Shown here: piece after piece, positions 27,579-37,044 of the stretch
Layout of the letters: each line of letters opens with the position of its first letter
How positions within the stretch are numbered: position 1 is the stretch's first letter
IMG/VR virus record: IMGVR_UViG_3300031280_000007
Span: 1 to 37,044 of that record
From: a virus
Length of the DNA stretch: 37,044 nucleotides
Reading direction: 5' to 3' (one strand)
The notes under the pieces: generated by a model
What the model was told of the DNA's origin: nothing
The model's input: the letters and a program-made list of their open reading frames with translations, nothing else
Database searches by the model: none
Translations under genes and position numbers: made by a program

Positions 27579-27599
27579 CGAATAAAAGCCAATAGTTAA

Positions 27600-27640
27600 G
27601 AGAGTACCTAGACAGACGAGAGAGCCAGATATTTTGAGAG
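27600..27640 (+). repeat. GAGAG-NRCC-N9-GAGAG repeat, cluster 1 (2 units)
   Basis: Two overlapping perfect units start at 27600 (GAGAG-TACC) and 27618 (GAGAG-AGCC), so three GAGAG boxes stand exactly 18 bases apart (27600, 27618, 27636). They lie just upstream of promoter P3. The rule is the same in the larger clusters further along the plus arm, always in plus orientation. Confidence 0.8.
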
Positions 27641-27663
27641 GCATAATAATTACCAAAAAACAC

Positions 27664-27691
27664 TTGACATATACTAAAAACATGTTATAAT
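27664..27691 (+). promoter_or_regulatory. Strong early promoter P3
   Basis: TTGACA and TATAAT, 16 bases apart with a TGT extension. Upstream is TAATTACCAAAAAACAC, the box shared with P1, P2 and P4. Transcription would start near 27698 and run straight into the structured RNA at 27728-27821. Confidence 0.85.
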
Positions 27692-27727
27692 ACAATTAGT
27701 TTTAGAAGGAGAAGAGAAAAAAAGAAT

Positions 27728-27821
27728 AGTCCCGTTGTTGGTTCTCGGATAGATGCTAACCTTCAGTTCAGAGCTTTTCTTTGAGATCAGCGGAAGGTTA
27801 GATGTTTTCCCCAACGGGACT
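27728..27821 (+). ncRNA. Structured leader or small RNA
   Basis: Two nested perfect stems: AGTCCCGTTG with CAACGGGACT (27728-27737 / 27812-27821) and CTAACCTTC with GAAGGTTAG (27756-27764 / 27793-27801). TTTAAAA follows the outer stem, so it could also terminate. It begins about 30 bases after the P3 start site and lies before the 27901 gene. It may be a stand-alone small RNA or an attenuator leader. No known riboswitch class is recognised. GGA triplets occur in the inter-stem and apical segments. Confidence 0.6.
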
Positions 27822-27900
27822 TTAAAATACTCGCCTGGTTTTAATTGTTAGGCTCTCAGTTAAAAGCTTTGATTTGATCATCGCGGGGAGTCACCGACTG

Positions 27901-28317
27901 ATGTCAGGCGAGTTAAGAATGGAAAAGGGAGGGTTAGAAGTGTCGGTTGCATTGCATTGTCGCCTTTCCTTTTCCTGTGAGGATAAATTAAAAATGTTAA
28001 TTAAAGTCACTGAGTTAAAACAGCCAAGAAGACTAAATGTTGAATTGGGAGGGGAGAATTTAAGCCGGTGTGTGAAATATCGGCCATGGACTTATGACAT
28101 GGCAGACATGATTAAAAAATATAGAGCCATGGCTCTGGAACTAGAGGAAAGGCGGCAAACATCCAGCGAAGAATATGATGCATTAGTGGGAATAATAATC
28201 GGATTTGAACAAATGAAAGAAGCCTTTCTTAAATTAGAAAGTTTCCACGCACAAGCGGTCAGTAAATTTTTAACCCAACAGGAAGAGGAAAAACATCATG
28301 AAAACTGTCATTTATGA
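27901..28317 (+). CDS. Hypothetical protein
   Basis: 138 residues from ATG 27901, which has GGGGAG upstream. ATG 27919 is a possible later start, and a TTG at 27874 extends the frame but has no ribosome site. The sequence has a beta-type N-terminal half (VSVALHCRLSFSCEDKL) and a helical C-terminal half (KYRAMALELEERRQTSSEEY). It overlaps the next gene by 20 bases. No family recognised. Confidence 0.62.
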   Translation: MSGELRMEKGGLEVSVALHCRLSFSCEDKLKMLIKVTELKQPRRLNVELGGENLSRCVKYRPWTYDMADMIKKYRAMALELEERRQTSSEEYDALVGIIIGFEQMKEAFLKLESFHAQAVSKFLTQQEEEKHHENCHL

Positions 28318-28588
28318 AAAATACGTCAAAAAATTTGAGATTAAATTTCAGAATGCGGCAACGCCGTTTGCTCTAATTTGGTTTGCGCAAGAGAAAATAT
28401 GGAAAATTGAGTATTTTAAAAGCCTTCATTTTCTCACGGAATATTTAACGCACGTGTGGATAACGACGCAAGCCATAACAGACCATGGCATTCTTGATGA
28501 AGAAGGAACACGTTACGAATACATACCAGCGGCGATTGTTGAAGAAATGCCAGATGTTTGTTTAACCGCGCCAGAGGCACAGGGGTAG
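28298..28588 (+). CDS. Hypothetical protein
   Basis: 96 residues beginning MKTVIYEKYVKKFEIKFQ, with GAGG about 9 bases upstream. It contains Trp-rich FALIWFAQEKIWKIEYF and an acidic end. A short remnant with the same N-terminal sequence is found at 29560-29616, suggesting local duplication. Function unknown. Confidence 0.66.
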   Translation: MKTVIYEKYVKKFEIKFQNAATPFALIWFAQEKIWKIEYFKSLHFLTEYLTHVWITTQAITDHGILDEEGTRYEYIPAAIVEEMPDVCLTAPEAQG

Positions 28589-28590
28589 AA

Positions 28591-28848
28591 ATGAATAGAG
28601 TGGAAGAATACAACCAATTAAGCGTCATTAACGTACAACGTAAACTGCGTAATAGTTTAAAAAGCAAAATTGAAATGAATACCGATGCAAGTTTACCGAT
28701 GGCCACCTATGGCTATGAATGTGGGGTATGTGGGGCCTATTTTAAGATTGTTTTTGGCGTTACGCATGCAGCGTGTCCCCGGTGTGATGAAGAAGTGTAT
28801 ATTTCCTCTGCAACCTGGGAAGAGAAGAAATTACAGGTGAGGGAATGA
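28591..28848 (+). CDS. Small zinc-ribbon protein
   Basis: 85 residues from ATG 28591 (AGGGG six bases upstream); an earlier TTG in frame lies in the preceding gene. The second half has CGVCGAYF and CPRCDEEV, a Cys4 pair spaced as in rubredoxin-like zinc ribbons. A helical basic N-terminus precedes it (INVQRKLRNSLKSK). Likely nucleic-acid or protein binding. It is the last gene before the origin-like intergenic region. Confidence 0.7.
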   Translation: MNRVEEYNQLSVINVQRKLRNSLKSKIEMNTDASLPMATYGYECGVCGAYFKIVFGVTHAACPRCDEEVYISSATWEEKKLQVRE

Positions 28849-29242
28849 ATTTTATTATTATACACAATGTTATCCACAACTTACATTTTATTAGGCGTAG
28901 GGAGAGCCTTAATTAAAAGTGTTTAATAGACAGAAAGACTAACAATAAAATACAAGATTTATATATATAATATAGAACTAAGAAATATTTTAATTACTTC
29001 TTTTAAAAGTTAAATTCTTACGATTTTAACTTTATGTCCACGTTTTATGTCCATAAAAACGGGACTAAAGAGTAGTTTAGTTTTAAAAAAAAAGATGTCA
29101 ATAGGGAAAAATGTCATAAAAATATTAAAAAATGGTATTTTTAGGCATAAGGTGATGAATTTAAAGGAAGAAAAAAAACGGGATTAATTTGTAACAGCTT
29201 TGTTACAATCTGTTACATTTTGTTACAAAAAGGGAAAATGAT
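28849..29242. other. Origin-like intergenic region
   Basis: A 394-bp stretch without a gene. It holds a perfect DnaA box TTATCCACA (28870-28878), a very AT-rich run (ATTTATATATATAATATAG around 28957-28976), the 10-bp direct repeat TTTATGTCCA (29031-29040 and 29044-29053) and the phased GTTAC repeats at 29188-29228. DnaA box plus AT-rich segment plus iteron-like repeats is the layout of many theta origins. No initiator gene is recognised, so this is a candidate only. Confidence 0.5.
29188..29228 (+). promoter_or_regulatory. Helically phased GTTAC repeats
   Basis: Three TGTTACA elements have GTTAC at 29202, 29212 and 29222, exactly 10 bases apart, and an inverted GTAAC is at 29191. They end 15 bases before the ATG of the next gene. 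One-turn spacing places all sites on one face of the helix, as for an operator or iteron bound cooperatively. Related AATTGTTAC / GTAACAATT sites are in the 24389-24944 control region. Confidence 0.6.
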
Positions 29243-29560
29243 ATGAAATCTATACCAAGAGAAATGCAAAATAACTTCAAAATTACGGCAGTTGGAATAG
29301 TGATTTACCGCTCATACGAGACCCCTCATCTAGAACTCTTTTTTAAAGAGAGAGTTACTAAAATTGAGGTATACCATACACGCTGCATGCAAGGAGGTAA
29401 AATTATGCCTGAGAAAACACAAGTATGGTTGAATGTCGAATTTATTAAACACAAAGATAGAAAAATTTGCATTGCCGCAGGAGAAAGTTATTTAGATAAC
29501 CCCCTAGGAATAACAAATTTATTTAATGAAATTGTAACAGAAATAGAGGATAAATGGTGA
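29243..29560 (+). CDS. Hypothetical protein behind the GTTAC repeats
   Basis: 105 residues, with AGGG about nine bases before the ATG. It is a mixed alpha-beta small protein (ITAVGIVIYRSYETPHLELF, then KTQVWLNVEFIKHKDRKICIA). It starts 15 bases after phased repeats that could serve as its operator or as an origin element. No initiator motif is seen. Its stop overlaps the start of a short remnant frame. Confidence 0.62.
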   Translation: MKSIPREMQNNFKITAVGIVIYRSYETPHLELFFKERVTKIEVYHTRCMQGGKIMPEKTQVWLNVEFIKHKDRKICIAAGESYLDNPLGITNLFNEIVTEIEDKW

Positions 29561-29616
29561 TGAAAACAGTATTTTACGAAGAATCTGTAGAACGGGAGAT
29601 AATAAATACTCAATAA
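29560..29616 (+). pseudogene. 18-codon remnant related to the 28298 gene
   Basis: Starting at an ATGA overlap with the previous stop, this frame encodes MKTVFYEESVEREIINTQ and stops. It matches the first residues of the 28298-28588 product (MKTVIYEKYVKKFEIKFQ) at about half the positions, including the start and MKTV.YE. It looks like a truncated duplicate, or a tiny coupled peptide gene. Confidence 0.4.
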
Positions 29617-29630
29617 TTACCTAAAATTAC

Positions 29631-29697
29631 TTGACAATATTAAAAAGTGTGTTATAATAGGTTTTGTAAGTAAGATAAACTGTCCGATTTGATCGGA
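29631..29697 (+). promoter_or_regulatory. Strong early promoter P4 with operator-like repeat
   Basis: TTGACA (29631-29636) and TATAAT (29653-29658), 16 bases apart with a TGT extension, preceded by ATAATTACCTAAAATTAC as in P1-P3. Just after the expected start site is TCCGAT-TTG-ATCGGA (29683-29697), a perfect 6-bp inverted repeat that could act as an operator or a 5' hairpin. The next gene starts 23 bases later. Confidence 0.78.
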
Positions 29698-29719
29698 AAC
29701 TTAGTAGAGGAACGAAAAA

Positions 29720-29956
29720 ATGGAACCAACTTTATCAAATGACTTTACCCCTTCCCCTTTTTTTGATTGGTACGACTGGGAGCATCACGAAGACGATTGG
29801 ATACACGTTGAAGATGACCTTGATTATCCGTTAGACGCCTTCCAGCTCGCCATTGGTTTTGACGAAGCGGATAGCTCCGAGATTGGCTTTTATGCCAGTG
29901 TTTGGATTGAAGAAAATTATAAAAATTTAAAATTAGATGAATGCCAAATACGCTGA
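29720..29956 (+). CDS. Highly acidic small protein, DNA-mimic candidate
   Basis: 78 residues, driven directly by P4, with GAGG ten bases before the ATG. About a third of residues are Asp or Glu, with many Trp, Tyr and Phe (FFDWYDWEHHEDDWIHVEDD). That composition is typical of DNA-mimic proteins such as anti-restriction factors, though acidity alone does not prove it. The first unit of the big GAGAG cluster begins at its stop codon. Confidence 0.62.
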   Translation: MEPTLSNDFTPSPFFDWYDWEHHEDDWIHVEDDLDYPLDAFQLAIGFDEADSSEIGFYASVWIEENYKNLKLDECQIR

Positions 29957-30355
29957 GAGCGCCAAAGATATAGAGAGTAAAGCCATCTGTAGAGAGAGAG
30001 CCGGATACGATGAGAGAAAAAACCTGTCAACCTGAGAGAACCAAGAAAAACGAGAGAAAAAACCTGTCAACCTGAGAGAACCAAGAAAAACGAGAGCAAA
30101 AACCTGTCAACCTGAGAGAACCAAGAAAAACGAGAGCAAAAACCTCTCAACCTGAGAGAACCAAGAAAAACGAGAGCAAAAACCTCTCAACCTGAGAGAA
30201 CCAAAAGAGATGAGAGTTAAAACCTATAAAATAGAGAGTACCGTAGGAATTGAGAGGGATTAAACCTATAGAATGGAGAGCGCCTAGACAAAAGAGAGTT
30301 TAAAATAACGAATAATGAAAACCTATAAAATAGAGAGTACCGTCAAGACCGAGAG
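29955..30355 (+). repeat. GAGAG-NRCC-N9-GAGAG repeat, cluster 2 (10 units)
   Basis: Ten perfect units start at 29955, 29994, 30034, 30074, 30114, 30154, 30194, 30234, 30276 and 30333. Within every unit the two GAGAG boxes are 18 bases apart. Four of the units (30034-30154) sit in a 40-bp tandem repeat (GAGAGAACCAAGAAAAAC, then GAGAG and a CAACCT end). The NRCC box is AACC, TACC, CGCC or AGCC. All units are in plus orientation. The cluster ends 26 bases before the Transposase_20-like gene. It contains no frame. Confidence 0.92.
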
Positions 30356-30381
30356 AACAATTTCAAAAAAGAGGAAAAACC

Positions 30382-31494
30382 ATGATCGAAGAAAACACAT
30401 TTATTGAGAAAATAAGCAATGAAGCCATTCAGGGACTGCAAAGCGAAGAAATTAGACTCGTCGTCGATAATTATTACCGCATGCAACATCATCGCCTACG
30501 TCTTGAAGCACAAATGCGAGCGCTATCTCCTTCTTTCAAAGAACAATTAAAAATGATGGAGAAAAACCCTGAGTTAAAAGAATGCCCCCCGCTTGCCTTA
30601 ACGCTTTTATCCAAGACTTCCCACGTTTTTAAACGTGAGGAGAAATTTACCGCCAATATTTTATCGCGTTGGGTAAAATCTCATCCGAGGGCGAAAATTT
30701 TATGCGAAGCTGTCGGAGTGGGGCATATTCTAGCGGCTGGCTTAGTAGCGCACGTTAATTGGTCAATGGTTTGTACAGCTGGTAAGTTATGGTCATTTTG
30801 TGGTTTAAACCCTGAAAGCGAATGGAAGAAAGGCGAAAAACGCCCGTGGAACGCCCATCTCAAACAGCTTTGTTTTTTAATCGGTGAAAGTTTTGTCAAA
30901 CAAAAAAATCGAGAAAATGACGTCTATGGCAAAATTTATCAAAAGCGCAAGGACTGGGAAAACGCACGCAATGAAGCTTTAACCGCCAGTTATCCTGAAG
31001 CGCGACCCTTATTAGCCACGCTGAAAGAAACACAAGACGCTGTGAAAAGAGAAAAAATATATAAAGAACTTAAAACCAAATACGGCTTTATGCGCCCGGC
31101 GCATATTCATGCCCGCGCCAAACGATTTGCCGTTAAGCTTTATTTAGCGGATTGCGTTCACTTTTTGGCCGATGAAGGATTGCTTGAAAATTTACCCAAT
31201 CCATTTTACCCCATGACGGGGAAAATGTACCTCGATAAAAATGTAGACACCTTCGAATTAAGACATTTTAATGGGGAAGAGCAGGTCTCTACCACGCGCG
31301 GATGGCAATCGCTTGTGGTATGGGCAACTGAGATTTTTAAGACGAAAAAAACCGTGTTCTCTGAGAGTACCGTAAAAAAGGAGAGAAATGCCAACGAAAT
31401 GGAGAGTACCGTACTGAGGGAGAGAAAATCCAAAAAAGAAACAACGAATAAGAAAAACCGATTTAAAAATAAACGTTTGGCAAAACGACAATAA
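30382..31494 (+). CDS. IS110-type Transposase_20-like protein without the DEDD domain
   Basis: 370 residues. Residues 108-170 read like the C-terminal domain of IS110-family transposases: a helix-hairpin-helix CEAVGVGHILAAGLVAHV, then KLWSFCGLNPESEWKKGEK and a LKQLCFLIGES helix, then YGKIYQKRK and a HIHARAKRFAVKLYLA end. IS110 enzymes have an N-terminal RuvC-like DEDD domain. Here the first ~100 residues are helical and show no such motifs. A Ser in PESE may stand for the catalytic Ser. The last ~50 residues are encoded by GAGAG repeat units. Flanked on both sides by repeat clusters. Confidence 0.65.
   Translation: MIEENTFIEKISNEAIQGLQSEEIRLVVDNYYRMQHHRLRLEAQMRALSPSFKEQLKMMEKNPELKECPPLALTLLSKTSHVFKREEKFTANILSRWVKSHPRAKILCEAVGVGHILAAGLVAHVNWSMVCTAGKLWSFCGLNPESEWKKGEKRPWNAHLKQLCFLIGESFVKQKNRENDVYGKIYQKRKDWENARNEALTASYPEARPLLATLKETQDAVKREKIYKELKTKYGFMRPAHIHARAKRFAVKLYLADCVHFLADEGLLENLPNPFYPMTGKMYLDKNVDTFELRHFNGEEQVSTTRGWQSLVVWATEIFKTKKTVFSESTVKKERNANEMESTVLRERKSKKETTNKKNRFKNKRLAKRQ
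31363..31424 (+). repeat. GAGAG repeat, cluster 3a, inside the gene end (2 units)
   Basis: Perfect units at 31363 (GAGAG-TACC to 31385) and 31402 (GAGAG-TACC to 31424) lie within the C-terminal coding part of the Transposase_20-like gene. The repeated ESTVKKER / ESTVLRER peptide is a direct consequence. The 18-bp step within units is kept although the codons are used for protein. Confidence 0.85.
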
Positions 31495-31505
31495 CCACAT
31501 ACTCA

Positions 31506-31633
31506 GAGAGTACCGTAAAAATTGAGAGAAATAACGTTTATTACACCTCATATAAATGAGAGCGCCTTAACAAGAGAGAGAATAATCATTAACAATTAAC
31601 CGTAAAAATTGAGAGAACCTTGAAAAAAGAGAA
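31506..31633 (+). repeat. GAGAG repeat, cluster 3b (2 perfect and 2 partial units)
   Basis: Perfect units start at 31506 (TACC) and 31558 (CGCC). A partial unit at 31593 keeps AACC and the second GAGAG at 31611. A further GAGAG-AACC at 31611 is followed 18 bases later by GAGAA (31629). The stretch has no gene and ends just before the next gene's ribosome site. Confidence 0.82.
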
Positions 31634-31646
31634 AGGAGAAATCATC

Positions 31647-32000
31647 GTGAACACGAAAGAAAAAGTAGAAGTTGCATTTGATGTTTATAAAAAGAACGCA
31701 GGAGAAATTATAATGAAACATCCATTTCCGTTATTAGAACAGATATTTTCAGAAGCTATAACGAAATTAGAAAAAAATTTGCCTCTCCTTGATGAAGAGA
31801 TAAAAAGACATATCATGTTATCCATAAAACAATTAAAAAAAATGGTACTTCAGGGGATCGTCAAAAAAGCGGTGCAATTAGGAGAAGCTAATCCGGAAGA
31901 GCTTAAAAAATATCCACGCGCGTTTGCTTTTTTTGAAGAGGTTAAAAAAGATAAACCCGATTGGAATAATTTTTTTGAGGAATTTAACAAGAAGCATTAA
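31647..32000 (+). CDS. Hypothetical helical protein
   Basis: 117 residues from GTG 31647, which has AAAGGAGA seven bases upstream; the longer frame from TTG at 31620 lies in repeat sequence. Entirely helical, basic and acidic segments alternate, with a C-terminal PRAFAFFEEVKKDKPDWNNF. It precedes the csrA promoter. No family recognised. Confidence 0.62.
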   Translation: MNTKEKVEVAFDVYKKNAGEIIMKHPFPLLEQIFSEAITKLEKNLPLLDEEIKRHIMLSIKQLKKMVLQGIVKKAVQLGEANPEELKKYPRAFAFFEEVKKDKPDWNNFFEEFNKKH

Positions 32001-32014
32001 TTATTTAATTTTGC

Positions 32015-32043
32015 TTGACATTTTGATAGAAAGTTTTTATTAT
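32015..32043 (+). promoter_or_regulatory. Promoter for csrA and the recombination genes
   Basis: TTGACA (32015-32020) and TATTAT (32038-32043), 17 bases apart, with the csrA ATG 18 bases beyond the -10. It would also serve the coupled genes to RecT. It lacks the ATTACC box of P1-P4. Confidence 0.65.
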
Positions 32044-32061
32044 TAACGAGGAGAAAATAAA

Positions 32062-32250
32062 ATGCTTGTATTGACACGCAAACCACATGAAAACGTGATT
32101 ATCACCACCCCTGACGAAACTATTACCGTGAGAGTATTGCGCATTGAAAAAGGAACGGTACGCCTTGGCATTGACGCCCCTCCGGAAGTGATCATTGATC
32201 GTGAAGAAATTACCAAAAAGAAAGAAATTGCCAATCAATTTAATAGGTGA
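32062..32250 (+). CDS. csrA: CsrA-type post-transcriptional regulator
   Basis: 62 residues, the size of host CsrA/RsmA. It begins MLVLTRK, continues with VRVLRIEKGTVRLGIDAP and ends the core with DREEI, the complete family signature. The RNA-contacting Arg6 and the second Arg (Arg47 here, Arg44 in E. coli) are both present. CsrA binds GGA in loops of messenger leaders and represses or stabilises them. GAGGAG lies nine bases before the ATG. It leads the group with exonuclease and RecT. The GGA-containing repeated leaders at 24920 and 25760 are possible targets. Confidence 0.93.
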   Translation: MLVLTRKPHENVIITTPDETITVRVLRIEKGTVRLGIDAPPEVIIDREEITKKKEIANQFNR

Positions 32251-32257
32251 AAATAAA

Positions 32258-32494
32258 ATGAATACTAGAGAATTATATGATTTACGCGCAACGCTTATTG
32301 AAGCGCAAGAAGACCAAATAAAAATCACTAATTTAATGAGGCATTTTTCTACTTTTTTAGAGAGTATGATAGCAATAAGCACAGATAAATTAGAGACCAT
32401 TCGAGATACACTTCGAACACAAGAAGTCGAATTGACCCAACGAATGAAAAAGATTGAGTGGGAAAGGGATAGGGAGGAGGTTGAAAAAGAATGA
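32258..32494 (+). CDS. Small coiled-coil protein
   Basis: 78 residues from ATG 32258 (AGGTGA upstream); a frame opening at 32195 inside csrA is rejected as start. All-helical and charged, with a coiled coil from about residue 40 to the end (KLETIRDTLRTQEVELTQRM). Its stop overlaps the exonuclease start by 4 bases, so they are coupled. Function unknown. Confidence 0.65.
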   Translation: MNTRELYDLRATLIEAQEDQIKITNLMRHFSTFLESMIAISTDKLETIRDTLRTQEVELTQRMKKIEWERDREEVEKE

Positions 32495-33393
32495 TTGAAG
32501 ATAGATCAATCGGCCTTGGGGGCTCAGACGCCGCCGCTGCATTAGGCTTTGATAAATATTGTTCCCCTTATCAGCTATGGCTTGAGAAAACAGGACGCGC
32601 TGACCCCAAATCTACAGGATTAGCCGCAGAAGTGGGTACTTATTTAGAGCCGTTTGTAGCGCAGAAATATGAACAAATTAAAAATGTAAAAGTGAGAACC
32701 GCTGAAGGCACCCTTTATCATCCCAAATATTCTTTTTTATACGCCCACCTTGATCGACTTGTAAAAACAAGCGAGGAGTTAGCCGATGACATTATCATTG
32801 AATGCAAAACAAGCGGCGCTTTTCGACAATATGAATGGGGAGAAGAAGACACGGGTAAATTGCCACCCCCTTATCTTTTACAAGTATATTATTATTTAGC
32901 ATTAACTAATTTTAAACAGGCAGATGTGGCCGTCTTGATTGGCAATCATGACTTTAAAATTTATCGCATTCCACCCAACCAAGAATTGCAACAAACCATT
33001 ATTGATGGGATGGTAAATTTTTGGGAGGAATATGTCCTCAAAGATATTGCGCCTTCCCCAAAAACTTGGTTTGATTTAAAGCACCGCTACCAAGATATTA
33101 AAAAAAATTTGCGAGAAGCAAGCGCGGGCGAAGTAGAGATGATTAAAGAGTACAATTCACTTAATACGGCTATTAAAAAACAACAAAAACATATCGATCA
33201 TATTAAATGGAAATTATGCAATGGGATTGGCGAAAATAGCGGCCTGTCAACTGCCGATGGAAAAACCCTTGTCACCTGGAAAGAAATGAAAATCAAAGCT
33301 CCCACTTGTCCGCATTGCCACCTACCGTTATACGATAAACCAGAACTACCACAACGGCGGTTTTGGGTTTGTAAAGCAGCGAAGGGATTATAA
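32491..33393 (+). CDS. YqaJ-type viral recombinase exonuclease
   Basis: 300 residues. The N-terminus has IGLGGSDAAAALGF (residues 7-20), then YLEPF with Glu53, AHLDR with Asp88, IIIECKTSG with Glu104 and Lys106, and YLLQVYYYL with Gln131. This is the lambda-exonuclease-like order for a 5'-3' exonuclease that loads an annealing protein. The last 30 residues add a CPHC and a further Cys, a partial zinc ribbon. The gene lies two genes from RecT, completing a two-component recombination pair. A 29-bp piece of it (33137-33165) recurs at 36522-36550. Confidence 0.88.
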   Translation: MIEDRSIGLGGSDAAAALGFDKYCSPYQLWLEKTGRADPKSTGLAAEVGTYLEPFVAQKYEQIKNVKVRTAEGTLYHPKYSFLYAHLDRLVKTSEELADDIIIECKTSGAFRQYEWGEEDTGKLPPPYLLQVYYYLALTNFKQADVAVLIGNHDFKIYRIPPNQELQQTIIDGMVNFWEEYVLKDIAPSPKTWFDLKHRYQDIKKNLREASAGEVEMIKEYNSLNTAIKKQQKHIDHIKWKLCNGIGENSGLSTADGKTLVTWKEMKIKAPTCPHCHLPLYDKPELPQRRFWVCKAAKGL

Positions 33394-33394
33394 A

Positions 33395-33988
33395 GTGAAT
33401 AAGAAAATGGTAAAAATGAGTGAGGAGGTAAGAAGAGTGAAAGAGAAAGATAAAAAGAAGGCCAATGACTCAAAGTTTGTATACGTAAAAAGTAAAGATG
33501 AAACGCTAGATGATCTGCCCCCGGATATCAAACGTGGTCAGCAATTGAGAGAATTTATCAAAGAAACTTGTGACAAAGAAATAGGCTTTGTTGAATATAT
33601 GTTAGATAAGTACGCTATTTTTGCGGATGAGCTGACTGAGCAGCAAAAAGTAGTTGAGTTACTAAATTGCAGTAAAGAAGAGTTACAAATACGCGCTGAA
33701 ATGAAACAACAGGGGGCTTCCGAGGCTTTTGACTCTAAAAATTTTAAGGATAATGCAAAGGAGACAGCATATGATAAATTAATAGCGCGAGTTTCCTCGC
33801 TTGATGCAATTTATAAGATTGATAATTTAATGTGCGCTGCTAATGCCGCACAAAACTATCTTTCTAATTTGAAAACAGACCCTGGGATGCCATTCTCTAA
33901 CCGATTTTTGCATGTTAGTTTGTTGTTATCAGCTCTGACTGACGCACGTCTAGTTATGCAGCAACTACAAAACGGAGAAAAGCAATGA
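33395..33988 (+). CDS. Hypothetical protein between exonuclease and RecT
   Basis: 197 residues from GTG 33395 (AAGGG eight bases upstream); ATG 33407 or 33416 are alternatives with no ribosome site of their own. The N-terminus is very basic (VRRVKEKDKKKAND), the rest is acidic and helical. It overlaps the RecT region and so belongs to the recombination operon, perhaps as a single-strand binding or accessory partner. No motif proves that. Confidence 0.62.
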   Translation: MNKKMVKMSEEVRRVKEKDKKKANDSKFVYVKSKDETLDDLPPDIKRGQQLREFIKETCDKEIGFVEYMLDKYAIFADELTEQQKVVELLNCSKEELQIRAEMKQQGASEAFDSKNFKDNAKETAYDKLIARVSSLDAIYKIDNLMCAANAAQNYLSNLKTDPGMPFSNRFLHVSLLLSALTDARLVMQQLQNGEKQ

Positions 33989-34005
33989 AAAGAGGAGAAG
34001 AAAAA

Positions 34006-34872
34006 ATGAGCACTGACTTATCATCATTTAGAGAGACCTCATTTGGTAAAATGCCAACCACCATGCGCGATGCGTGGACCCTAGCTACCATGCTTGCAAA
34101 AAGCTCGCTGGTACCTAAGGCTTATATTGGGAAGCCACATGATATTTTTGTAGCGCTCGGAATGGGCGTTGAACTGGAGATACATAAACCACTCCAAACC
34201 TTGCGATCTATTAATGTCATTAATGGGATGCCAACCGTGTGGGGAGATATGCTCCTGGCCTTAGCTATGCGCCATCCTGATTTTGAGGACATTGAAGAAA
34301 AAATTGATGGCGACGGAGACCAGCGCACCGCAACATGTATCATTAAGCGTAAAAATAGAACCCCAGTAGTAAGAACATTTAGCATTGCCGAAGCAAAGCG
34401 AGCCGGTTTATTATCACGTAATGGAGCGTGGCAATCTTACCCGGATCGAATGCAACTTAGGCGAGCGCGCGGTTTTGCCGTACGGGACAGCTTCCCAGAA
34501 GTAACGTGTGGGATAGGAATTGTAGAAGAAGTAAACGATTATGCCTTTGAAGAAGAACGCCCCTCATTAAACATCTCGGAAGATAACGGCCATCAAGGCC
34601 AAGCCCAACAGCTTTTGAATGCTTTAAAAACCAAACACACGCCGGAAGTAGATATTTTTTCCACCAAAGAGAAAATCTTTGAAGAACCATCTCACCCTGA
34701 AGAGGAAGCCGCCAAGCAGGAGGATATAAATACGGAACAAATGATTGATGAAATCAAAATGTCCCAGCGGTATAAATCCGAAGACAACATTAATTTAGAG
34801 GAAATTGACGATGATTTTAAAGACTTTCCAGCGCTCGCTGAAGAAATGGCTGAAGAGCAATCATCCTTGTAA
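34006..34872 (+). CDS. recT: RecT-family single-strand annealing protein
   Basis: 288 residues from ATG 34006, chosen over 33985 because AGAGGAG lies eight bases upstream. The core has LAKSSLVPKAYIGKPHDIF, MGVELEIHKPLQTLRSINVI, MPTVWGDMLLALA, FSIAEAKRAGL and MQLRRARGFAVRDSFPEV, the usual RecT order. The C-terminal ~100 residues are acidic, as in proteins that bind SSB-like partners. RecT-type proteins anneal single strands resected by the exonuclease, giving recombination and possibly recombination-dependent replication. Confidence 0.88.
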   Translation: MSTDLSSFRETSFGKMPTTMRDAWTLATMLAKSSLVPKAYIGKPHDIFVALGMGVELEIHKPLQTLRSINVINGMPTVWGDMLLALAMRHPDFEDIEEKIDGDGDQRTATCIIKRKNRTPVVRTFSIAEAKRAGLLSRNGAWQSYPDRMQLRRARGFAVRDSFPEVTCGIGIVEEVNDYAFEEERPSLNISEDNGHQGQAQQLLNALKTKHTPEVDIFSTKEKIFEEPSHPEEEAAKQEDINTEQMIDEIKMSQRYKSEDNINLEEIDDDFKDFPALAEEMAEEQSSL

Positions 34873-34930
34873 TTGTGTCATAAAATTCCTTAATTACATG
34901 GAAAGTTAATGATAAAGGAGACTAAAAAAA

Positions 34931-35380
34931 ATGATCCGTGAAATAATTTACTATTTTATTTATTTATTTGGAATGGCACTTGCGATGATGTTCATTGCTC
35001 AAACCATGATTTGGAATGATAATCGGCGTAATAAAAAAGAAGATGAACTTTCTACATTGCATCAAGCCTATAAAAATTTAAAAGATCAATTAAAAGATAC
35101 CAACGAATTGCTAGATTTTCATTTAATGTTTTCACGAAAATTAATTTATTTATCATGTAATTATGATATATCCATTTATAAAAGTCGGCTGCGAGAATTA
35201 ATGGAAGAAAATTATAACTGGTGGGAGCATATAAGCCAAACCAAACAACAAGGATGGAGTCAATTTTCAATCCGACAATTAACCAGGGAAACGGTCGCTT
35301 ATGAGGAATGGGTAGGAAAACAACTCATCAAAGATAAAAAAATTGGTTTAATCGTCCGTCAAAAAGAGTGGATGATATAG
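34931..35380 (+). CDS. Membrane-anchored coiled-coil protein 1
   Basis: 149 residues. An N-terminal hydrophobic segment (IIYYFIYLFGMALAMMFIA, residues 4-23) is followed by a short basic turn and a coiled coil (LSTLHQAYKNLKDQLKDTN). AAAGGAG lies before the ATG. Together with the next gene it forms a membrane pair. Such N-terminal anchor plus coil topology fits an inner-membrane spanin or an anchored regulator, but no lipoprotein partner is seen. Confidence 0.64.
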   Translation: MIREIIYYFIYLFGMALAMMFIAQTMIWNDNRRNKKEDELSTLHQAYKNLKDQLKDTNELLDFHLMFSRKLIYLSCNYDISIYKSRLRELMEENYNWWEHISQTKQQGWSQFSIRQLTRETVAYEEWVGKQLIKDKKIGLIVRQKEWMI

Positions 35381-35383
35381 AAA

Positions 35384-35716
35384 ATGCAACTTGCAATAAT
35401 TATTCCCTTATTAGCGGTTCTTATCGTTATTATATCCGTAATTTTACTAAGAGTTTCTTTTTGTCAATTAGTAGAAGCGCGCCGCAATTACAAAAGACTG
35501 AGTCACTGTTATCATCGAAAGAAACGTCAAAAAGAGAGTCGTGGGCGCGCTTATGTCGGCGTCCGCCAGCTCCTGCATAACGTGCAAGAAGATAATCGTA
35601 GGATGAGTAAAACGATTGATTCACAAATTGATGAAATCAGCTATAAGAATAGAAAAATAAATGAGCTGAAAGAAAGAATAGAGGAATACGAAAAGTCGTT
35701 ATGGTTTAAGCTGTAA
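35384..35716 (+). CDS. Membrane-anchored coiled-coil protein 2
   Basis: 110 residues starting 4 bases after the previous stop. One N-terminal hydrophobic segment (LAIIIPLLAVLIVIISVILL) is followed by a strongly basic region with HCYHRKKRQKES and a coiled coil to the end (KINELKERIEEYEK). It resembles the inner-membrane subunit of a spanin, but this is a guess. No outer-membrane lipoprotein was found nearby. Confidence 0.62.
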   Translation: MQLAIIIPLLAVLIVIISVILLRVSFCQLVEARRNYKRLSHCYHRKKRQKESRGRAYVGVRQLLHNVQEDNRRMSKTIDSQIDEISYKNRKINELKERIEEYEKSLWFKL

Positions 35717-35720
35717 ATTC

Positions 35721-35748
35721 TTGACATTGAATAATGAAATGCTAACAT
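35721..35748 (+). promoter_or_regulatory. Promoter for the double-HTH gene, leaderless
   Basis: TTGACA (35721-35726) and TAACAT (35743-35748), 16 bases apart with a TGC extension. The ATG at 35755 is only seven bases past the -10, so the transcript would begin at or next to the start codon. Confidence 0.66.
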
Positions 35749-35754
35749 GCAAGG

Positions 35755-36279
35755 ATGATCGCAAAACCGATGTTGCATCCCCTCATTCACCAAGAACGGC
35801 AACGTATTGGAAAATTAATTGCCCAAAAACGGGTACAAAAAGGGCTATCTTTACGCACTATGGCAATGCGTTTAAAAATGAGTCATAACTATATCCATCT
35901 CCTAGAGAAGGGATATTGTAAAATCTCTTTAAAAGCAGCTAAGCGTTTAAGTCGCCTTTTTAAAATTCCATTTGAAGAATTATATTGGGGAGAAGGAAAA
36001 AATAATTATTGGCATCGGCTACAATTAGGAAAAGAGTTAGTCCTTCAACGCATCAGCCAAGGATGGAGCGTTGAAAAGATAGCAGCGCTTTTGAATGAAA
36101 AAGTAAAAACAGTCTATACGGTAGAAGAAGGCTATTTATTTGTCCCCTTAGCCAATATTGATCGCTGGAGCGAAATATATCGATTACCATTGCATGTTTT
36201 ACGAGGAGATTACTTTAAAGAAAATATGACTAACCACATAAAACGAGAGAACCAGAAAGTGGAAGAGAATAAACAATAA
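35755..36279 (+). CDS. Regulator with two XRE HTH domains
   Basis: 174 residues. The first HTH domain spans about residues 18-78 (KRVQKGLSLRTMAMRLKMSHN, then LLEKGYCKISLKAAKRL and IPFEELYW), a typical XRE domain. A second, weaker copy covers about 89-152 (QRISQGWSVEKIAALLNEKV, then VEEGYLFVPLANIDRW and LPLHVLRGDYF). Two domains in one chain would suit two direct half-sites. A later ATG (35770) is possible. The last ~12 codons run into the GAGAG repeats (KRENQKVEEN). Confidence 0.78.
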   Translation: MIAKPMLHPLIHQERQRIGKLIAQKRVQKGLSLRTMAMRLKMSHNYIHLLEKGYCKISLKAAKRLSRLFKIPFEELYWGEGKNNYWHRLQLGKELVLQRISQGWSVEKIAALLNEKVKTVYTVEEGYLFVPLANIDRWSEIYRLPLHVLRGDYFKENMTNHIKRENQKVEENKQ

Positions 36280-36672
36280 TAAATACCTTGCTACCTGAGA
36301 GAGCCAGATGAGAAAAGAGATAATAACCACATTAAGCGAGAGAACCGTAACCGGTGAGAGAATAATAACCACTTCTATTGAGAGAACCGGAGCCATCGAG
36401 AGAACCGTAACCGGTGAGAGAATAATAGCCACATCTATCGAGAGAACCGTAGCCAGCGAGAGAATAACAAGTAATAATAACCATTTATAGAGAGAGAGCC
36501 ACATTTATAGAGAGAGAGCTAAGATGATTAAAGAGTACAATTCACTTAATGCGGTATGAGGATTGAGAGATCCTAAAAAATAAAGTAAAACCAGAGTTAG
36601 AGAGAGTACCTCAATATTGGAGAGAAACCATATAAAAACCATCCATAAAGAGAGAACCAGAAGGTAAGAGAG
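36245..36672 (+). repeat. GAGAG-NRCC-N9-GAGAG repeat, cluster 4 (7 perfect, 2 degenerate units)
   Basis: Perfect units start at 36338, 36380, 36398, 36440, 36492, 36602 and 36650. Degenerate ones at 36245 and 36297 keep GAGAG-NRCC but end in AAGAG, still 18 bases on. The last unit (36650-36672) ends immediately before the ATG at 36673. CCGTAACCGGT appears twice as the filler. A 29-bp copy of exonuclease-gene sequence (36522-36550) lies between units, with an 11-codon frame ATG to TGA. The 60-codon plus frame here is repeat-coded and not supported as a gene. Confidence 0.9.
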
Positions 36673-37044
36673 ATGCGCGAAAAAATCAAAAAATTAATTG
36701 CCGAAATCGAAGAAGAAAAACTTTTTTATCTCGCCAAAGCTCATACTTTAGAAAAATGCATTTATGGGTTGCAGCATCAAGAAAAAATAGCGTGGAAAAA
36801 GGAAGACCCGCTACATCGAAAATTAAGATGGGAAGATAAGAGAACAGAAGACTACATGCCGGGCATCACGCATGATATGGCACGCATTCATTTTACAGTA
36901 TCCTATCCGGATTATGCCCGCGAAATTACATCTGAAAAATCACAAACCATCTATGCCGAGGCGGCAGCCGAATTAATAGGGAAGAATGAAAAAATAAAAG
37001 AATATCTACTCACATATGCCAAGATAGTAGAACTGAATGCTAGA
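36673..37044 (+). CDS. 5' part of join-spanning gene, hypothetical protein
   Basis: Starts at ATG 36673 with AAGG eight bases upstream and continues past the end of the window into 1-199, giving 147 residues. The first half is helical and charged (KIKKLIAEIEEEKLFYLAKA). TVSYPDYAREIT and an Ala/Glu-rich helix follow. The first base of the frame directly follows the last GAGAG repeat, so that repeat overlaps its leader and may influence expression. Family unknown. Confidence 0.75.
   Translation, partial: MREKIKKLIAEIEEEKLFYLAKAHTLEKCIYGLQHQEKIAWKKEDPLHRKLRWEDKRTEDYMPGITHDMARIHFTVSYPDYAREITSEKSQTIYAEAAAELIGKNEKIKEYLLTYAKIVELNAR
36918..37043. repeat. Terminal direct repeat, right copy
   Basis: Identical to bases 1-126. 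Closing the molecule on this overlap gives about 36,917 bp. It lies inside the coding sequence of the join-spanning gene, so the window cut is arbitrary and no biological end is implied. Confidence 0.9.

Follow-up and report, generated by a model that had tools for sequence, protein, structure and literature searches.

What are the repeats that recur at four places, all on the same strand, in the viral genome record IMGVR_UViG_3300031280_000007? The window analysed here comprises positions 1 to 37,044 of that record (37,044 nucleotides). A preliminary description, made from the sequence itself, reported a 23-bp unit, GAGAG-NRCC-N9-GAGAG, and suggested that a protein with two recognition domains might bind it, that it might serve as an iteron or in partition, or that it might be a motif acting in RNA. 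Our analysis favours the last of these, through the anatomy of the arrays, the homology and fold of a neighbouring protein, and the presence of similar arrays in related phages. On sequence comparison and a predicted protein structure, the repeats are very probably Tandem Interspaced Guide RNA (TIGR) arrays of a phage-encoded TIGR-TasA system.

The statement that no repeat of this form had been described is out of date, as dual-repeat TIGR arrays with 9-nt spacers were reported in 2025 (Faure et al. 2025, PMC12045711). TIGR-Tas systems combine a Nop-domain protein with arrays of two alternating repeats that are separated by 9-nt spacers. The published repeats have a box D at the start and a box C at the end, and the arrays sit upstream and/or downstream of tas. 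An 18-bp target is read on both strands, spacer A of the 36-nt guide (tigRNA) pairing with one and spacer B with the other (PMC12045711).

How far does the repeat in the window share this anatomy? The pattern GAGAG-N-RCC-N9-GAGAG is matched exactly 23 times, each time on the plus strand, and not once in 100 dinucleotide shuffles. A pattern scan thus recovers the 23 units in four clusters that were first reported, and a listing of every GAGAG confirms the fixed 18-base step (24 pairs), the variable gap between units and the differing N9 filler. The four clusters exist, with narrower limits for two of them: exact units end at 31580 in cluster 3 and start at 36338 in cluster 4, the outer limits first quoted (31633 and 36245) taking in degenerate units. 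As RCC stands exactly nine bases before nearly every GAGAG of the arrays, the repeat is better written RCC-N9-GAGAG. This half-unit occurs 46 times exactly on the plus strand and never on the minus strand, against a shuffle mean of 0.37 (maximum 4, 200 shuffles). Nine is the sole favoured spacing: it accounts for 46 occurrences, and none of the other spacings tried (0 to 20) exceeds six. The nine filler columns carry just 0.0-0.34 bits of information, while the RCC and GAGAG on either side do not vary. The half-units are paired as RCC-N9-GAGAG-N-RCC-N9-GAGAG, a 35-nt cassette in which two candidate 9-nt guides flank GAGAG-N-RCC. Four near-copies, one with a 10-base filler (31546) and three with one box mismatch each (31617, 36251 and 36303), restore otherwise broken pairs and bring the total to 50 spacers in four arrays. 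The predicted features are:

27588..27640, plus strand: TIGR array 1, three 9-nt spacers with two loop-type repeats, GAGAG-N-RCC, between them
29943..30355, plus strand: TIGR array 2, ten dual-spacer cassettes with 20 spacers; linkers of 4-7 nt, one of 22
30034..30042, plus strand: example of the 9-nt loop repeat GAGAG-N-RCC, with box D GAGAG, one base and box C ACC
30382..31494, plus strand: tasA, encoding a Nop-domain TIGR-associated protein of 370 aa with no nuclease domain (phmmer, family profile and AlphaFold (AF2) model)
31351..31633, plus strand: TIGR array 3, five cassettes with 10 spacers (two in degenerate half-units)
36233..36672, plus strand: TIGR array 4, 17 spacers (two in degenerate half-units)

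Arrays 2 and 3 flank tasA. The first two cassettes of array 3 fall within the 3′ end of the gene, and residues 324-348, near the C-terminus, are translated from the array. Array 4 includes a three-spacer chain at 36368-36420, and its first cassette overlaps the 3′ end of a helix-turn-helix (HTH) gene. Besides the 9-nt loop repeat, the arrays hold a second repeat of variable sequence that in most cases measures 12-15 nt and reaches about 43 nt at the longest. Tight and long repeats alike start with GAGAG and end with RCC. Between these boxes the long repeats hold usually 4-7 A/T-rich bases, sometimes up to 35, giving forms such as GAGAG-AAAAA-ACC, GAGAG-CAAAA-ACC, GAGAG-AATAATA-RCC and GAGAG-TAAA-GCC, plus longer ones. 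The cassette period is 39-42 nt or more. With no fixed edge repeat, the cassettes are therefore loosely strung and aperiodic. A clustered regularly interspaced short palindromic repeat (CRISPR) array, with repeats of 25-36 nt, spacers of like size and Cas proteins, was considered and rejected: the loop repeats and spacers measure 9 nt, and no Cas effector was found among the scanned proteins. A search of Rfam gave no relevant match.

Which protein would use these repeats? The preliminary description had named a Transposase_20-like protein as one candidate partner, and by profile and fold this protein is the Tas effector. Its Pfam match to Transposase_20 lies below threshold. With the single protein as query, phmmer finds TasR (9MTY, E 4e-5) and TasH (21KL, E 1e-4); a profile of the 39-member family strengthens these matches to 3e-45 for TasR (9MTY) and 1.7e-28 for TasH, with IS621 at 2.4e-11. 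The AF2 model (mean predicted local distance difference test score, pLDDT, 81.6) is all-helical with a compact helical core. In a Foldseek search of the PDB, ranks 1-10 are all TasH or TasR (best E about 1e-5), and IS110-type recombinases come next. The Nop domain that characterizes TIGR-Tas is thus recognised by both profile and fold search.

The weak Transposase_20 match and the distant match to IS621 would also suit an IS110-family mobile element with a bridge RNA. We find this scarcely credible, as the matches to TasR and TasH are far better, the N-terminal DEDD/RuvC domain is absent, and the locus holds arrays of many cassettes rather than one two-loop RNA. In place of the missing domain, the N-terminal 100 residues of the model form two long helices, coiled-coil-like by comparison with TasR. 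Neither a RuvC nor an HNH nuclease domain was recognised in Pfam and PHROG scans or in the AF2 model, and the protein is therefore classed as TasA. In a quick tree it falls beside, not within, the large dual-repeat clade (support 0.86), on a long branch. Single-protein searches of IMG/VR found no close relatives of the Tas protein or of the phage's exonuclease; the phage is therefore isolated in IMG/VR. A search of a plasmid collection gave no homologue.

Do other phages with this gene carry the repeats? A profile built from the window protein and three phage homologues identified 70 viral loci that encode Tas relatives. The pattern RCC-N9-GAGNGNRCC-N9-GAG is present in 39 of the 43 tas-bearing records searched, with up to 139 matches, and the reversed pattern occurs 0-1 times. 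The pattern is confined to one strand in nearly all records (G020 is the clear exception) and the arrays usually lie directly beside tas. Absence from every relative with the same genes, which the preliminary description had named as a refutation, is thus not what was found.

This association also bears on the idea of a protein-binding array. L5-type mycobacteriophage repressors bind stoperators in one orientation, and the RCC-N9-GAGAG sites, likewise bipartite, asymmetric and of single orientation, could be DNA operators or stoperators for the two-domain HTH protein encoded at 35755-36279. That protein has an HTH_3 domain and a second, weak HTH match, it shows weak similarity to an immunity repressor of known structure (8bny, E 0.003), and array 4 adjoins its gene. 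We nevertheless consider such an operator array very unlikely, because the arrays track tas, the gene between arrays 2 and 3 encodes a protein that matches TIGR effectors best, both in sequence and in fold, and operators have no need of hypervariable 9-nt fillers in two-part cassettes. The idea that the repeats are a partition site or the iterons of a replication initiator, a role that would fall to the Transposase_20-like protein, fares still worse. One gene is indeed flanked and entered by direct repeats, and among the scanned proteins no replication initiator was recognised. Against this, the protein is one of a family of RNA-guided proteins with a Nop domain, the repeats stand at four places over 9 kb, and their spacing is fixed while their fillers vary, so that we give this explanation almost no weight.

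For the TIGR reading, the relatives also help to assign the two repeats. In their arrays, GAGAG-N-RCC alternates with an edge repeat, usually GAGCGAGCC, mostly with a 36-nt period; the edge repeat contains a C4-G7 pair, or T-A in some. As GAGAG-N-RCC alternates regularly with GAGCGAGCC and mostly opens and closes these arrays, it is taken as the loop repeat. The swapped assignment, with the short repeat as edge and the long one as loop, was rejected because isolated cassettes always hold the short repeat inside, and because the relatives' arrays mostly begin and end with a GAGAG-type repeat. Five relatives have four to seven arrays dispersed over about 9-12 kb, like the window, so dispersed arrays are normal in this group. 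The layout itself appears to be evolvable, since it varies in other members too: read by eye, the edge in L105 is often 5 nt long (GAGCC), and the loops of L111 vary. Pattern scans of IMG/VR and GTDB turned up no second example of the window's exact layout, although its near relatives may be missing from the searchable records. The strict pattern gave six matches in IMG/VR and further ones in GTDB; these have the look of tandem repeats that are GC-rich or lie in coding sequence, and no Tas is encoded in the GTDB stretches. A looser IMG/VR pattern gave 86 matches, most of which were not inspected singly. Pattern matches of this kind alone carry no meaning.

Where does the locus stand among known TIGR systems? 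Like the published dual-repeat TIGR-TasA (PMC12045711), it is phage-borne and has a nuclease-free Nop protein, same-strand arrays beside tas, paired 9-nt spacers and box-sharing repeats, with a 35-nt cassette compared with a 36-nt tigRNA. Unlike that type, its edge is not a fixed repeat of 8-12 nt, as only an A/T-rich stretch lies between the boxes, and the C4-G7 (or T-A) pair of relatives with an edge repeat is missing. The published SpTIGR of Salicola phage CGphi29 has similar repeats, AAGCGAGCCA and AAGACAACCA, and an 18-nt step, but differs in its N-terminal HNH nuclease (TasH), its 8-nt spacers and its regular 36-nt period. Closer to the window are the metagenomic phages L099-L146, which share the loop repeat GAGAG-N-RCC and 9-nt spacers, some with several dispersed arrays. 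Their TasA proteins are homologous to that of the window at up to about 40% identity (L099, 43% over 242 aligned positions), but in most of these phages the edge repeat is a regular GAGCGAGCC and the period is 36 nt. The stem-loop TIGR type (compare '69/transposase' of the cluster A mycobacteriophage Marsha) has a homologous TasA (28-30% identity) with hairpin units in place of box repeats, whereas four 35-nt window cassettes fold no better than shuffled sequence. In Marsha (L015 2660-2980), gene 69 is preceded by hairpin units that, read by eye, resemble the published stem-loop type. More generally, cluster A mycobacteriophages carry TasA homologues, with upstream hairpin units, under the gene annotations 'transposase' or 'HTH DNA binding'. 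They adjoin a gene for a Cas4-family exonuclease, and the window's tasA is likewise near a RecE-like exonuclease gene.

Some results weigh against a TIGR identity. A canonical edge repeat was looked for in the window and not found, so regular 36-nt processing is not to be assumed; nor do the arrays show the two alternating 8-12 nt repeats with a regular 36-nt period of the canonical dual-repeat type. Target searches used the geometry derived from the paper's cut positions (spacer A and then spacer B in reverse complement), and the opposite order was also run. With the derived geometry, self targets in the phage gave 96 summed mismatches versus 93.7 +/- 3.0 for shuffled spacers. For targets in relatives, 1388 spacer pairs run against 2.45 Mb of fetched, mostly viral DNA gave one match versus 0-1 in shuffled pairings. 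Neither result rises above chance. The function of TasA is unproven in the published work too (PMC12045711). The opposite order gave 90 versus 95.3 +/- 2.4 for self targets, with no match under three mismatches, and was not counted. The most repeated cassette had 14 matches versus 4 in IMG/VR, in about nine unrelated groups versus about three (inverted geometry), which is not significant. The lack of targets matches the published remark that natural TIGR targets are hard to identify (PMC12045711).

How might the system work? By analogy with the literature on its relatives, N9 would be the spacer, GAGAG box D and RCC box C, and each cassette would be a gene for a dual-guide tigRNA, reading box C, spacer A, box D, loop, box C, spacer B, box D. 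Cleavage of the array transcripts between cassettes would release guides about 36 nt long, and one guide may be held by a TasA dimer through two box C/D pairs, forming a dimeric ribonucleoprotein. The two spacers would then pair with opposite DNA strands along about 18 bp, A on one and B on its partner, with no protospacer adjacent motif involved. As it has no nuclease, TasA most likely binds, unwinds and bends its target rather than cutting it. Its biological purpose and targets are a matter for speculation: our guess is that it might block the transcription or replication of competing DNA, regulate such DNA, or block or bend the DNA of competitors or of the host.

The locus is a member of the TIGR-Tas family, in the TasA branch, with a new array layout. 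A striking and unexplained repeat is thereby placed in a very recent RNA-guided family, which gains a layout in turn. We tentatively suggest, at somewhat below even confidence, that this is an 'edge-less' TIGR, with free-standing 35-nt dual-guide cassettes in which the loop repeat alone is fixed, variable A/T-rich linkers and a deep-branching TasA. If true, this would be an intermediate stage, with regular dual-repeat arrays on one side and single, scattered guide genes like those of small nucleolar RNAs on the other, and guide maturation would be independent of the edge repeat. If a TasA can work with no edge repeat, this would reveal which part of the RNA is required for processing and loading. 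The roughly 40 phage records, in which array matches number as many as 139 per record, offer material on guide targets, guide maturation and array growth.

Some further observations concern the arrays. Three identical tandem cassettes in array 2, at 30022, 30062 and 30102 (TGTCAACCT/AAGAAAAAC), are followed by a one-base variant at 30142 (span 30022-30176). This is recent array growth through duplication. Between cassettes of array 4, positions 36522..36550 (plus strand) are an exact 29-nt copy of part of the phage's RecE-like exonuclease gene (33137-33165), possibly a recombination scar or a clue to how arrays acquire sequence. The spacer sequence GTAGCCAGC (window 36446-36462) is also found in the array of a distant relative (G036, L140, about 29098-29148); 0.19 shared spacers are expected by chance.

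Transcription of arrays 2 and 3 may start from the following site:

29631..29658, plus strand: sigma-70 consensus promoter-like site, TTGACA-16-TATAAT (12/12), upstream of a small open reading frame, array 2, tasA and array 3

Judged by its sequence and position, this site is the probable source of an array 2/3 transcript. The stretch 27664-27930 contains another promoter-like site of consensus form (TTGACA-16-TATAAT) and, downstream of it, an untranslated leader that holds two long stems, AGTCCCGTTG/CAACGGGACT and ACTCGCCTG/CAGGCGAGT. The folding energy of this leader reaches only z = -1.4 relative to shuffles, and it has no Rfam match. Its second hairpin contains GGCTCTC, which is complementary to the GAGAGCC of some repeats. 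A CsrA-family RNA-binding regulator is encoded at 32062-32250 (Pfam CsrA, 3.8e-18). Finally, with a 126-bp direct terminal repeat (1-126 and 36918-37043), the record probably covers a whole phage genome, either circular or terminally redundant; it encodes a P22-like portal.

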